From positions 1,364,001 to 1,428,000 of the forward strand of contig NZ_CP126738.1 of assembly GCF_030246865.1 (NCBI RefSeq): a stretch of DNA of 64,000 nt, read 5' to 3'. Within the stretch, counting starts at the first letter, position 1, and each line of letters begins with the position of its first letter. Positions 55,417 to 59,186 of the stretch are shown here, one piece after another. A model generated the notes under the pieces. It worked only from the letters and a program-made list of their open reading frames with translations. It did no database searches and was not told the origin of the DNA. A program made the position numbers and the translations under genes. The stretch is from Microbacterium sp. zg-B96 (GTDB lineage: Bacteria; Actinomycetota; Actinomycetes; Actinomycetales; Microbacteriaceae).

Positions 55417-56283
55417 GTGATCGCAGTGCTGAATCGGCTCGTCGAGTACGTCGAGGACCACCTCACCGAGGAGATCGACATCGCCGGCCTCGCGCGCATG
55501 CTCGGCACGACGGAGTACCACGTTCGCCGGATGTTCTCATCGTTGGCGGGCATGCCGTTGTCCGAGTACATCCGTCGCCGTCGCATGTCGGTGGCTGCCG
55601 CAGATGTCCTCGGCGACGGTGAGCTGCTCGGCATCGCGGTGCGCTACGGATACGGCTCCACCGAGGCGTTCAGCCGCGCGTTCCGCGCGGTGCACGGCGT
55701 CAGTCCTGGCGACGTGCGCCGCAATGGTGGCCCCCTTCGGACACAACCGCAGCTCAGGTTCCGCCTGACCGTAGAAGGGACTACCCCCATGGACACTCGC
55801 ATCACCGACCGTCCGGCATTCCGGCTGGTCGGCCACGCGGCTCGCGTGCCGTTGATTCACCGGGGCGCCAATCCAGACATCCAGGCGCACATCGCGTCAC
55901 TGCCGGCCGCCGAGCATGACCGCCTCAAGGGGCTGAGCGACGCTGAGCCGGCCGGGCTGCTACAGGTGAGCGCCGACGTCGACCCCGACTATGCCGAAGG
56001 CAGCGAGCTGACCTACCTGCACGGGGTCGCCGTCAGCGCAGCGACCCTTGTGACCGAGGGCCTCACGGCGATCGAGGTTCCCGCCGGCGCCTGGGCGGTG
56101 TTCCGCGTCACCGGCCCTTACCCTGCCGCGTTGCAGTCCACATGGGCTGCGACGGCCACCGACTGGTTCCCCTCGAACCCGTGGCGGCTGCGGCCCGGCC
56201 CGTCTATCGTCGCCGTGCTCGACCGCGCCGATGACTTCAGCACGGCGACCTGCGAACTGTGGATGCCGGTGGAACGCGACTGA
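55417..56283 (+). CDS. AraC family regulator with GyrI-like effector domain
   Basis: A 288-residue regulator. An N-terminal double-HTH AraC domain (about 1-105, VRYGYGSTEAFSRAFRAVHG is the second HTH) joins a GyrI-like C-terminal domain (about 125-285, ending CELWMPVERD) that binds amphipathic drugs in relatives such as Rob and SbmC. The GTG at 55417 is preferred: AAAGGGG lies 6 nt upstream. The in-frame ATG at 55399 has no good ribosome site. Probable role: multidrug or redox response. Confidence 0.87.
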   Translation: MIAVLNRLVEYVEDHLTEEIDIAGLARMLGTTEYHVRRMFSSLAGMPLSEYIRRRRMSVAAADVLGDGELLGIAVRYGYGSTEAFSRAFRAVHGVSPGDVRRNGGPLRTQPQLRFRLTVEGTTPMDTRITDRPAFRLVGHAARVPLIHRGANPDIQAHIASLPAAEHDRLKGLSDAEPAGLLQVSADVDPDYAEGSELTYLHGVAVSAATLVTEGLTAIEVPAGAWAVFRVTGPYPAALQSTWAATATDWFPSNPWRLRPGPSIVAVLDRADDFSTATCELWMPVERD

Positions 56284-56295
56284 CTCTCGGGCAGC

Positions 56296-56368
56296 GTCGG
56301 AATTCAGCCTGTGCGGGCTGGAAAGCCTCGCGACGGCGCGCGATGCGCCTCTCAGGCTGAATTCCGAC
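56296..56368. repeat. 73-bp palindromic element, copy 1
   Basis: Perfect 16-bp terminal arms GTCGGAATTCAGCCTG (56296-56311) and the reverse complement (56353-56368). It lies between the convergent AraC and TPR genes. Copies 2 and 3 at 56944 and 58038 have the same arms and the same total length. Confidence 0.9.
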
Positions 56369-56381
56369 GCCGCTCAGGGAA

Positions 56382-56873
56382 TCAGCGAGCCGGGTCGGAG
56401 TCCACCAGCGCGTCGGCGTAGGCCTCGACGGCCCGCCGGTACGTCGGCAACGTGGGTGCGAGGGCCTTCAGCGCCACCCGGAGCGCCTCGTCCGGACGGC
56501 CGGCGTCTCGTAGCGCCAGCGCCAGGAACGCCTGCGGGGCAGCGCCGGTCACCGTATCGCCCGGGTGATCCTGCAGCAGTGCGACCGCGGCATCCGCTTC
56601 GCCCACGTTCCGCAACGAACTGGCCAGCTGCACGACCGCCTGCGGCCGCCGCTCCCCCGCCAACCCGCGCTCAAGAGCGGCGCGATAGAGCGGGATGGCG
56701 TCGCCTTCGCGTCCGAGGAAGTCGTGCACAGAGGCCCACTCGTACAGCGCCTCCGGCGATTCCGCGCCGCGCTCGTCGATGAGGGCCTGCATCTGCGCCA
56801 GCATCGCCTCCGGCCGGTCGTCGTCGGCATCGCGCCAGAAGGCAGCGACGCGCTCGTCCCACGGCTCAGTCAT
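56382..56873 (-). CDS. Tetratricopeptide repeat protein
   Basis: A 163-residue all-helical protein with about four TPR-like units (PEALYEWASVHDFLGREGDA, IPLYRAALERGL, AVVQLASSLRNVGEAD). It is a likely protein-interaction module with no catalytic residues. I chose ATG 56873 (MTEPWDERV) because this N-terminus fits relatives and a GAAAGAG ribosome site lies upstream. An in-frame start at 56915 would add 14 residues. Monocistronic between palindromic elements. Confidence 0.8.
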   Translation of the reverse strand: MTEPWDERVAAFWRDADDDRPEAMLAQMQALIDERGAESPEALYEWASVHDFLGREGDAIPLYRAALERGLAGERRPQAVVQLASSLRNVGEADAAVALLQDHPGDTVTGAAPQAFLALALRDAGRPDEALRVALKALAPTLPTYRRAVEAYADALVDSDPAR

Positions 56874-56943
56874 CGGTCGTGCTCTTTCCATCGGGGGCAT
56901 GCCGCCGGGGACCACTCTAGGGGCGCCGCACCTGGTCGCCCCC

Positions 56944-57016
56944 GTCGGAATTCAGGCTGAGAGGACCGCCGAGCCCCGTTTCGGGGCCGTGTGCGCCGCT
57001 CAGCCTGAATTCCGAC
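56944..57016. repeat. 73-bp palindromic element, copy 2
   Basis: Perfect 18-bp arms, 56944-56961 with 56999-57016 (GTCGGAATTCAGGCTGAG and its complement). The inner part has a second GCCCCGTTTCGGGGC hairpin. It lies between two minus-strand genes. Confidence 0.9.
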
Positions 57017-57027
57017 GCGCCCCTCCG

Positions 57028-57504
57028 CTACAGCGCCTTCCGCATCTGCTGCGTGACCACGTCGTAGCCGGCGGAGCCGTAGAGCCCGATCGCCACGGCG
57101 TTGCTTCCGAACACGTTCAGCTCCAGCGCGGCCGCACCGGCCCGGCGCGTGGCGTCCTCCACCGCGGCGAGCAGAGCCCGGCCGAATCCCTGGCCCCGCT
57201 TGGTCTCGACGACCTCGATGTCATACAGGAACGCCACCCCCGGTGCGCCGCGCGGGTGATCCAGGCTGACCCAGGCGCGTCCGACCGGCACGCCCTCGGC
57301 GTCGACACCGCGAAGGATCAGCATCCCCTCGGTCGCCAGTCCCTGCGGAAGGAGCTTCGCGGTCTCGTCGCGCGCTCGTTGCACCGATCCCTCCTGCGAC
57401 CACCTCCCGGCGGCGACCTGTTCGGCCGAGTACTCCTCCGCGAGCAGCGTCTGCCACTGCGCGTACTCTTCGGGGGTCATCGGGCGCACGGTCACCGCTG
57501 TCAT
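57028..57504 (-). CDS. GNAT family acetyltransferase
   Basis: A 158-residue GNAT. The acetyl-CoA motif A is KRGQGFGRALLAAVEDATRRAG (Q/RxxGxG/A as RGQGFG), and the C-terminal FGSNAVAIGLYGSAGYDVV is motif B. The acceptor is unknown. The ATG overlaps the stop of the upstream GNAT gene (ATGA), so the two are an operon. Confidence 0.85.
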   Translation of the reverse strand: MTAVTVRPMTPEEYAQWQTLLAEEYSAEQVAAGRWSQEGSVQRARDETAKLLPQGLATEGMLILRGVDAEGVPVGRAWVSLDHPRGAPGVAFLYDIEVVETKRGQGFGRALLAAVEDATRRAGAAALELNVFGSNAVAIGLYGSAGYDVVTQQMRKAL

Positions 57505-58001
57505 TGCGCCATGCTGGCATAGCCCCCGTCGCGCGCGTCAAGCGCGAGGTCGGCGACGGCACGTGACCAGGCGACCTCGTGGTCGAGTTGGGCGGTCTGA
57601 ACGAAGAGACGCACCTGACACGTCTGTGACAGCACGGCGGCGAGTTCGTCGCGGTCTGCCTCGGCGAACCCGAGCTTGCGCCAGAACGGCCCCGACCGCC
57701 GGGAGAACAGCCACGCTCGGGTGGCCCCGGAGGCCGCGGCATCCGCCATCGCGAACATCGCGAGCCGCGATCCGGCTCCGGTCCCCCGGTGCTCGGGCGC
57801 GATCGCGACGCTGCGGATCAGCGCGTGGGCGCCATCGTCGCTCAGTTCATATCCGGTGCTGCCGATGATCGACCCGTCGGCGGCGCGCTCTACCCACAGC
57901 CGCACCGCGGGGGCGTTGAGGCCGGCGAGGGTCAGATCCGCGTCGCGGAGGAAAGCGCGCAGGATGCCGGTGTCGGCAGCGGTGAGGCGGTTAAACGTCA
58001 C
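57501..58001 (-). CDS. GNAT family acetyltransferase (ArsN2-like)
   Basis: A 166-residue GNAT. VAIAPEHRGTGAGSRLAMFAM is motif A (RGTGAG), and FWRKLGFAEADRDELAAVL resembles the C-terminus of arsenic-resistance N-acetyltransferases (ArsN2), but no ars genes are near. GTG 58001 is chosen with GGGAG upstream. A longer frame to 58070 would read into the third palindromic element and is rejected. Operon with the next GNAT. Confidence 0.8.
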   Translation of the reverse strand: MTFNRLTAADTGILRAFLRDADLTLAGLNAPAVRLWVERAADGSIIGSTGYELSDDGAHALIRSVAIAPEHRGTGAGSRLAMFAMADAAASGATRAWLFSRRSGPFWRKLGFAEADRDELAAVLSQTCQVRLFVQTAQLDHEVAWSRAVADLALDARDGGYASMAQ

Positions 58002-58037
58002 AACGTCGATTCTCCCGCGGGGTATCGGTCGCCGGGC

Positions 58038-58110
58038 GCCGGAATTCAGCCTGTGGGGCCGAAATCCCACCCGGAAGGACTAGTGGATGCCGCTGAGGCT
58101 GAATTCCGAC
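58038..58110. repeat. 73-bp palindromic element, copy 3
   Basis: Arms GCCGGAATTCAGCCTG (58038-58053) and GAGGCTGAATTCCGAC (58095-58110) match the other copies with two differences. It lies between the GNAT pair and the SUMF1-like gene. Confidence 0.85.
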
Positions 58111-58135
58111 GGCGGGAGACGGCCCGCGCCGCGGC

Positions 58136-58879
58136 TCAGCGCCGCGGGGTCCAGCCGGGCGGCAGTGGGCCGTCGGTCATCGTGCGCTCGCGGTCTGCGG
58201 CGGCCGACCATCCCTGCGCGGCGTCGACGGCGTCGAACCCGCCCCGGGCCAGGCGCAGTCCCACGTCGTCGTGGTGCATGCGGGGCGCTCCGCCGCGACG
58301 GGTCGACGCGCGCACACTCCACGCGTCGTCGGCGAACCCGCCGCCGCGGAAGACGCGGTAGTCGCCGTAGCGTGCCGGGTCCAGCAGGTCCCAGCACCAC
58401 TCCCAGACGTTGCCGAGGGTGTCGAACAGGCCGTTGAGGTTCGGCAGCTTGCCGCCGATGTCGTGCGGTGCCGAGCCGCCGTCGTCGGCGGTCCAGGCCA
58501 CCTGGTCCAGCGGCCCGTAGTGAGCGCCGGTCGACCCGGCGCGGCAGGCGAACTCCCACTCCGCCTCGGTCGGCAGCCGGTACCCGTCGGAGTCCACGTG
58601 CCACGTGACCTCTTCGCCGTCGAAGGTGTACGCCGGGTCGAGGCCCTCCCATTCGGATGCCGCGTTGCACACCCGCACGGCGCGTAACCAGCTCACGTCG
58701 GCCGCGGGGCGCCGCGGGTGCGGAGCGGGTTCCCCCAGCAGTTCGGCGAGCTGTTCCTGCGTGAGGGGATAGACCCCGATCTCGAACGGCTCGAGGGTCA
58801 CGTGCCAGCGACGCTGCTGCCGGGCATCGTGCAGCGTGACGGTGCCGCCGGCCACGCGCGCCATCTCGAAATCCGTCAC
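58136..58879 (-). CDS. SUMF1-fold (formylglycine-generating enzyme-like) protein
   Basis: A 247-residue protein. GYRLPTEAEWEFACRAG, GNVWEWCWD and RVFRGGGFADD are hallmarks of the SUMF1/FGE-sulfatase domain. The two active-site cysteines of true formylglycine-generating enzymes should lie in the segment after RGGG; that segment (SVRASTRRGGAPRMHHDD) has none. No sulfatase gene is nearby. It may be a SUMF1-fold protein with another role. The start is GTG with TAGAGT 6 nt upstream. Confidence 0.82.
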   Translation of the reverse strand: MTDFEMARVAGGTVTLHDARQQRRWHVTLEPFEIGVYPLTQEQLAELLGEPAPHPRRPAADVSWLRAVRVCNAASEWEGLDPAYTFDGEEVTWHVDSDGYRLPTEAEWEFACRAGSTGAHYGPLDQVAWTADDGGSAPHDIGGKLPNLNGLFDTLGNVWEWCWDLLDPARYGDYRVFRGGGFADDAWSVRASTRRGGAPRMHHDDVGLRLARGGFDAVDAAQGWSAAADRERTMTDGPLPPGWTPRR

Positions 58880-58885
58880 TCCAGG

Positions 58886-58891
58886 ACTCTA
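58886..58891 (-). promoter_or_regulatory. -10 box TAGAGT of the SUMF1-like gene
   Basis: 6 nt before the GTG at 58879. Leaderless arrangement. Confidence 0.5.
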
Positions 58892-58925
58892 GTCGCGCGT
58901 GCGGCGGCACCGGGCCGCGCGAGGG

Positions 58926-59186
58926 TCAGACGGTGTCGTCGCCGGACGTCGTGGTGGACCGACGGGTGATCCGCTCGCCGGCGACCGGGTCGACGGCCGT
59001 GCGTGAGACGGTCTCGGTCGAACGGCGGCGTGCCATCAGCACGATGCCGATGATGAACACCAGCACACCGGCGCCCATCAGGATGTAGCCGATCATGTCG
59101 AGGTTGAACCATTCCACCTGGACGTTGACGGCGAACACAAGGATCGCTCCTATGACGAAGAGCGCAATTCCGGCTCCGATGCTCAT
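58926..59186 (-). CDS. Small two-helix membrane protein (DUF6458-like)
   Basis: An 86-residue protein with two hydrophobic segments (about 3-20 and 31-50, MIGYILMGAGVLVFIIGIVL) and a charged Arg/Thr-rich cytoplasmic tail. Such proteins are common in actinobacteria and sometimes labelled DUF6458. The function is unknown. AAAGGA lies 6 nt before the ATG at 59186; an upstream in-frame extension lacks support. Confidence 0.75.
   Translation of the reverse strand: MSIGAGIALFVIGAILVFAVNVQVEWFNLDMIGYILMGAGVLVFIIGIVLMARRRSTETVSRTAVDPVAGERITRRSTTTSGDDTV

Follow-up and report, generated by a model that had tools for sequence, protein, structure and literature searches.

Palindromic elements of Microbacteriaceae, stepped in length by about 11 bp, go with an AbiEi-like winged-helix nuclease gene

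Dispersed bacterial palindromes that go with an enzyme gene are known from the repetitive extragenic palindrome (REP) sequences and their REP-associated tyrosine transposases (RAYTs). RAYT genes are described in PMC2817692 as always flanked by two inverted REPs and as evolving fast. AbiEi, the regulator of the AbiE type IV toxin-antitoxin system, binds two 23-bp inverted repeats co-operatively and bends the DNA; in its relative Rv2827c, the repeats are separated by 10 bp more (both from PMC7319586). Here we describe three palindromic elements in 64,000 nucleotides of Microbacterium sp. zg-B96 DNA (contig NZ_CP126738.1, positions 1,364,001 to 1,428,000; the whole stretch is called the window). 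They belong to a palindrome family of Microbacteriaceae that goes with a gene for an AbiEi-like winged-helix nuclease. Among the papers listed in searches of the open-access literature (subscription papers mostly lie outside it), we found nothing on such elements or on a link between this nuclease and palindromes.

The initial annotation had reported three palindromes of exactly 73 bp, all between genes, and had judged them to be more than chance. We find the same positions and lengths, and gene calls place all three in spacers. Their positions in the window are given below.

56296..56368, no strand: element E1, 73 bp, GCCTG-type arms, in a convergent spacer 12 and 13 bp from two called stop codons
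56300..56307, + strand: left-arm core half-site of E1, GAATTCAG
56357..56364, - strand: right-arm core half-site of E1
56944..57016, no strand: element E2, 73 bp, GGCTG-type arms, 11 bp past the stop codon of the gene at 57028-57504 (- strand)
56948..56955, + strand: left-arm core half-site of E2
57005..57012, - strand: right-arm core half-site of E2
58038..58110, no strand: element E3, 73 bp, GCCTG-type arms with mismatches, 25 bp past the stop codon of the gene at 58136-58879 (- strand)
58042..58049, + strand: left-arm core half-site of E3
58099..58106, - strand: right-arm core half-site of E3

The arms of all three read GTCGGAATTCAG(C/G)CTG and its complement, near-identical and inverted; the left end of E3 reads GCCGG, and E3 has more arm mismatches besides. 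The core with its neighbours, GAATTCAGNNTG, occurs five times in the window, where dinucleotide shuffles lead us to expect 0.05 occurrences. Since two GNAT-like genes sit between E2 and E3, integron attC sites were considered and set aside; the arms appear to lack the attC core.

We refer to the sampled genomes by labels: G000 is Microbacterium sp. zg-B96 (a single contig of 3.41 Mb), G025 is Microbacterium pullorum Sa4CUA7 and G122 is a Microbacterium metagenome-assembled genome from Lac Pavin. The genome-wide search for paired arms that the initial annotation had proposed was run on G000 with the pattern GAATTCAG N{35,65} CTGAATTC (permitted matched part 51-81 bp). It found 17 places with exact arms, 15 of 73 bp and two of 72 bp, and the reversed pattern found none. 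Copies with mismatched arms raise the 73-bp class of G000 to 19 distinct sequences. Nine of the 198 genomes sampled from the genus match, four of them with 10-27 copies. Across the family, the core AATTCAG...CTGAATT at 51-81 bp is present in 90 of 398 sampled Microbacteriaceae genomes and in 39 of 85 genera; the reversed control gave zero among the matches listed. A longer core, AATTCAGG...CCTGAATT, was searched across the order in 396 genomes, 34 of them Microbacteriaceae. It matched six, every one Microbacteriaceae, and none of the 362 genomes sampled from the rest of the order. A fixed core misses drifted arms, so these breadth counts are lower bounds; some matches in small AT-rich genomes are probably due to chance. 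The elements are thus the Microbacterium branch of a Microbacteriaceae-wide palindrome family that is patchily present between species and genera.

Dense groups of elements in M. pullorum and in G234 each surround one gene. Both genes encode an AbiEi-like winged-helix part joined to a nuclease part of the PF18741 MTES_1575 (REase)/DUF559 type; taken by itself, the G234 protein scores under the curated cut-off. In 2.36 Mb of non-viral sequence (overlaps included), we found the family in 14 genomes of eight genera: G000, G025, G122, G156, G234, G363, G307, G218, G284, G560, G505, G370, G536 and G507. The G000 member is placed as follows.

about 2,206,018-2,206,878, minus strand: nuclease gene of G000, about 0.79 Mb from the window

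An element lies within 140 bp of the nuclease gene, or overlaps it, in 14 of 14 genomes, and elements lie on both sides in 13. Most upstream copies stand 70-140 bp before the start codon, and most downstream copies lie at most about 55 bp from the 3' end or overlap it (586 bp from the gene in G284); some of these flanking copies carry arm mismatches. We compared the nuclease genes with all 1,463 called genes in 1.59 Mb, 10 of them nuclease genes, in stretches many of which were chosen for holding elements (the 1.1 Mb of G025 alone is free of that choice). With a limit of 250 bp, 13 genes are flanked by elements on either side, six of them nuclease genes (Fisher 2.6e-11); with a limit of 400 bp, nuclease genes make up 7 of 15 (Fisher 2.7e-13). 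The 1.1 Mb of G025 holds one nuclease gene, which is flanked, and the next matches have E values of 0.2 or worse. Elements also gather near the nuclease gene in G363, G234, G307 and G507 (P 0.002-0.04; combined over seven genomes, 2.5e-5; with one genome per genus, 0.008). Genomes with more similar nucleases also have elements that are more alike in their arms and in length (Mantel P 0.0002 for each, n = 14). These data show a strong association between the nuclease gene and the elements.

Pfam AbiEi_4 matches 9 of the 14 proteins at E<=0.01, the first member scoring 23.8 bits against a curated cut-off of 25, and one PADLOC AbiEi model matches 10. PF18741 is found in 13 of 14 and DUF559 in 8 of 14 (E<=0.01). 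Seven polar residues of the nuclease part (E184, Q201, D211, D223, H228, D237 and R253) are invariant in all 14 proteins and may be catalytic. The nuclease matches PDB 3hrl, an endonuclease-like protein, with an E value of 2.3e-5; a single-sequence fold of the G122 nuclease, with a pLDDT of 37, was set aside. Three species comparisons within genus g38 (G234, G363 and G307) each put the nuclease lowest among the listed genes, at 56-65% identity, and most others stand at 70-99% (rows above 45% identity). No AbiEii (DUF1814) toxin gene was recognised by eye among the neighbours in G234, the genome read for it. No relatives of the nuclease were found by tblastn in viral contigs, and none in plasmids. 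In G234, G363 and G218 (L381, L387 and L391), the nuclease gene overlaps the downstream element at its 3' end, and the arm of this element codes for the residues GNSG.

The system would work like REP/RAYT but is not a member of it, because Y1_Tnp is found in 0 of 68 genomes. Both combine palindromes scattered between genes with an enzyme gene that has inverted copies on either side, and in both the arms vary together with the enzyme; the nuclease is less conserved than its neighbours, as RAYTs are (PMC2817692). The enzyme here is a winged-helix protein with an MTES_1575/DUF559 nuclease rather than a Y1 HUH transposase, and the units are longer, leave their centre unpaired and step in length by 11.2 bp. 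They do not follow the REP plan of a 20-40 nt hairpin footed by a GTAG/CGTC tetranucleotide: they measure 71-118 bp, and their outer bases differ between genera. The nuclease shares its winged-helix N-terminus with AbiEi; unlike AbiEi, it has a nuclease at its C-terminus, its sites are dispersed over the genome and its arms are much further apart than the repeats of the AbiEi and Rv2827c operators (3 or 13 bp apart). The GTAG-/CGTC-tagged palindromic repeats of PMC3733652 resemble the elements in being small palindromes, and CGTC forms the outermost bases of most Microbacterium copies. However, CGTC here has GACG as its partner at the opposite end and is missing from the arms in other genera. 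The terms 'actinobacteria' and 'Microbacter' are absent from the main text of that paper.

The length of the elements changes in steps. We measured from core to core (element length minus 10) in 33 genomes, fewer than have matches, using 269 element lengths from among the matches listed. The rung means (with numbers) are 62.4 (119), 74.3 (70), 85.5 (65), 96.2 (5) and 107.5 (2), with a slope of 11.20 bp. Together with one length at 51, 262 of the 269 lengths fall on rungs. The count excludes four genomes judged to match by chance (G280, 54; G446, 67; G292, 53; G278, 73), the lengths of G435 (74, 67, 64, 61, 63 and shorter), short palindromes from G277, G435, G500, G201, G558 and G478 (one 51-bp match of G478 was retained) and three G478 matches with multiple half-sites (83, 84 and 85); these exclusions tilt it somewhat towards the rungs. 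If every genome contributes each length a single time, a period of 11.35 fits best (R 0.81), and R was at most 0.33 in 2,000 jittered sets. A like pattern in viral contigs (120 matches listed, mean G+C 0.41) gave R 0.125 and thus no ladder.

Free scans were made independently of these exclusions. In the 1.1 Mb of G025, total lengths were 73 (13 copies), 72 (six) and 74 (one), and four further matches with 3-4 arm mismatches each overlapped a listed copy. In 20 stretches from the family, with 40-125 bp permitted, 64 of 65 matches lie at 61 (five), 72-75 (16), 84-86 (40) or 96-97 (three); the other is 67. Three orthologous gene sets in genus g38 carry 86-bp elements in G234 and G363 and elements of 72 or 73 bp, which are 13-14 bp shorter, in G307; one G234 spacer additionally holds a 74-bp element, and G307's own rungs are 72-75 and 84-85. 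For DNA looping in vivo, PMC1762422 gives a helical repeat of 10.95-11.60 bp per turn, and the step of about 11.2 bp comes close to it. The initial annotation had taken constant length as a mark of the elements and variable length elsewhere as a sign against them. Constancy holds in G000 (72-73 bp for this arm type) but not across the family, where the length varies solely as an 11-bp ladder.

The centres of the elements differ between copies, as the initial annotation had noted, but A/T patches recur within them. Among 51 distinct 73-mers, A/T content is 48% at positions 25-27, 36-38 and 47-49 and 16% in the rest of 18-56. The excess is found separately in G000, G025, G122 and G156 (P<=0.0002 in each, for patches chosen on the pooled set), and the pooled interior period is 11.25.

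Orthologous copies in M. pullorum reveal which parts of an element are kept. Eleven G000 loci have strong matches in the fetched part of that genome, and eight of them hold an element in the matching spacer or gene.

G000 loci with an element at the match in M. pullorum: L066, L067, L068, L071, L072, L073, L075, L076
G000 loci without an element at the match in M. pullorum: L069, L070, L074

The counterpart of the window region holds two elements in changed surroundings. Six orthologous pairs were aligned ungapped; the remaining two of the eight had several or differently sized copies. Identical positions number 175/192 in the arms, 119/245 in the centres and 78/144 in the adjoining 24 bases, the last a lower bound given the ungapped alignment; centres that are not orthologous share 35% identity. 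One aligned pair is a 72-bp copy within a methyltransferase-like gene in both species. Arms and length are thus conserved, whereas the centre and the adjoining sequence drift.

Some copies depart from the usual arrangement. G000 has a lone element with another arm type, AATTCAGGAAGAA, which resembles the arms of G507 (C1:715401-715464, L407). In genus g80 and some other genomes (G507, G473, G276 and G284), a second motif, CGACACGCC/GGCGTGTCG, lies inside the elements. Three identical elements sit in a tandem repeat of G156 whose unit is about 150 bp long (L105, C1:1195443-1195808). A lone element with GAATTCAGGAGA arms lies inside a 907-codon open frame of G049 (L110), apparently an F420-synthesis (CofG/CofH-like) fusion by sequence reading. 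In G284 (genus g5), a 66-bp subtype off the ladder (e.g., C1:628800-628865) has the tight hairpins TTCAGG-AATT-CCTGAA and TTCAGG-TTCG-CCTGAA. In G435 and G277 (genus g81; e.g., G435:C8:468829-468895), half-sites CTCCTGAATT recur at a spacing of about 21 bp, which would suit an array with one half-site per two helical turns. Some elements of G000 (L068, L069, L070 and L065, at 2.02 and 2.36-2.38 Mb) have a different repeat, about 90 bp long, next to them; it falls within a duplicated stretch common to L068 and L070.

The explanation that we favor, and think rather probable, is that the elements are palindromic double-stranded-DNA sites going with an AbiEi-like winged-helix plus Vsr-like PD-(D/E)XK nuclease (MTES_1575/DUF559), and that they form a REP/RAYT-like system on another nuclease. 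We infer that the nuclease binds, loops, cuts and mobilises them. Two nuclease molecules would use their winged-helix domains to bind the pair of inverted arms and keep them on one face of DNA bent over about 5-9 helical turns. We propose that only lengths differing by whole turns work for this reason. The nuclease domain may cut or nick at the complex, with repair spreading copies, and the copy upstream of the nuclease gene could double as its operator. Settled copies would stay under selection for arms and phase, probably since the protein still binds them.

Several observations weigh against this explanation. The nuclease gene of G000 has two upstream elements and none found downstream, and the choice of stretches by element content biases the association everywhere but in G025. 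Gathering near the nuclease gene is not significant in G000 (P 0.40), G218 (0.78) or G284 (0.12, all elements counted), and the arm correlation with one genome per genus has a P value of 0.059 (n = 9). Seven lengths fall off the rungs (66 five times in G284, 68 and 70), and the two g81 genomes, G435 and G277, carry many shorter palindromes of 25-46 bp. In G025 by itself, the interior period is not significant (P 0.14). The 11-bp phasing of the patches is clearest in 73-mers, because the 86-bp class has a near-fixed central A/T patch (0.94) that drives its best period of 12.75.

The weak evidence for copying also counts on this side. One G000 pair, about 22 kb apart, is alone in having near-identical centres (39/41), and it lies in a duplication of about 280 bp at 80% identity that extends 185 bp past the element on one side. 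We therefore rejected it as a case of a 73-bp unit copied into unrelated flanks. Two other similar G000 pairs are close tandem copies. The 15 remaining centres have a mean identity of 19.7/41 against 18.9 when columns are shuffled, as high in 0 of 300 sets, which hints at common descent of the unit. However, the best pair without the duplicates, 27/41, is reached by 27% of permuted sets, and in other genomes mean centre identity departs from the shuffled value by no more than about two standard deviations. Unit-wise copying is thus weakly supported, since the best pair is a larger duplication and no remaining pair stands out. The initial annotation's suggestion of a mobilised palindromic element stands in part: elements flank the nuclease gene in the way that REPs flank RAYT genes, and they occur patchily across species, but copying of the unit lends it little.

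The weakness of the copying evidence would suit a reading in which the elements are now host sites, bound by the nuclease-type or another protein as a nucleoid or insulator factor at operon ends, with mobility past or never present. The conservation of arms at orthologous positions agrees with this, as does a dnaG-dgt-dusB-glyS-uppS-recO-leuA-era context (by protein reading) in which elements stand beside the same genes in three species. A convergent bias fits as well: 82 elements in 1.49 Mb lie in 25 convergent (about 10-11 expected), 32 tandem (34-35) and seven divergent (about 19) spacers, in genes (14) and at edges (four). We nevertheless regard host sites as unlikely, given the patchiness among species and genera, the invariance of the nuclease's putative catalytic residues in all 14 proteins and the lack of a common place relative to dnaA. 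By eye, elements lie opposite dnaA in G363, near it in G432 and spread in G000, and on these differences sites that organise the origin or terminus were rejected. Alternatively, the elements could be miniature inverted-repeat transposable elements of an ordinary transposase whose short ends synapse in phase, with the nuclease gene a passenger. Work on IS50/Tn5 is said to have found that in-phase end synapsis limits very short transposons, and the local gathering in some genomes fits this idea. The nuclease gene is unlikely to be a passenger, because one gene family is flanked by elements in eight genera. In addition, orthologous copies have conserved arms and length but diverged centres and surroundings, which would not be so for neutral dead copies, and no target duplication is evident by eye in the 12-bp flanks. 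We hold this alternative to be improbable.

The same spacer counts, enriched at convergent and depleted at divergent sites, also fit bidirectional terminators or stable RNA hairpins at gene ends, and the initial annotation had offered a structural RNA or terminator. Forty of 82 distances to a stop codon are at most 60 bp, and the arms are able to pair. Within the 73-mers, however, pairing at positions 18-24 and 29-34 does not exceed that of permuted partners, and the 61-bp class of genus g78 has no centre covariation. Columns 17-24 of the 86-bp class covary when genomes are pooled (z 4.5) but not clearly within genomes (z 1.7 and -2.3), where the one signal, at columns 43-46, is weak (z 2.1). 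The two sides change together at arm positions 13 and 15, which could reflect shared descent. Folding is slightly better than in shuffles (mean z -0.65 over 68 elements), no T tract occurs in the sequences read, and the 11-bp ladder and A/T phasing are unexpected of a terminator loop. Copies also occur at divergent spacers and inside genes, including in-frame 24-codon copies in an HrpA-like helicase gene (72 bp) and in a methyltransferase-like gene (names by sequence reading). Rfam gave no gathering-score match for 55500-59000, the part searched (best 28.6 bits against 80 required). On missing covariation, phasing and gene context we rejected a hairpin RNA or terminator, for which we see a slim chance. 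Rickettsia palindromic elements also sit in frame inside genes, as these copies do; unlike the elements here, they are not known to have a nuclease partner or a length ladder. Classic REP/RAYT, in which a Y1 HUH transposase handles single-stranded-DNA hairpins, has the same layout, with inverted palindromes on both sides of an enzyme gene, numerous solo copies and a partner gene that evolves fast. Its units are 20-40 bp, not 71-118 bp with a helical ladder, and the REP-associated transposase for which the initial annotation had advised a search is lacking in its usual sense: PF01797 (Y1_Tnp), the sole transposase type searched, was found in 0 of 68 genomes, including G000, G025, G122 and G156, and the control matched in 5 of 14 named genomes. 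We consider classic REP/RAYT highly improbable.

A nuclease that acts on palindromic double-stranded sites therefore remains our preferred explanation. More tentatively, the elements and the nuclease may represent a new class of mobile or gene-drive-like element, in which a winged-helix PD-(D/E)XK nuclease is flanked by, and disperses, palindromic double-stranded-DNA units whose ends are synapsed by tight bending. The AbiEi-like MTES_1575/DUF559 nuclease group gains a candidate DNA target, and palindrome families may have a second enzyme class besides HUH transposases. If such a new class is real, the ladder of allowed lengths, about 4-9 turns, would be an evolutionary record of the chromosome's in-vivo helical repeat of 11.2 bp. 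The family would then provide a natural library in which the DNA length between sites is quantised by helical phase, so that genomes could reveal how DNA bends and supercoils in living actinobacteria.

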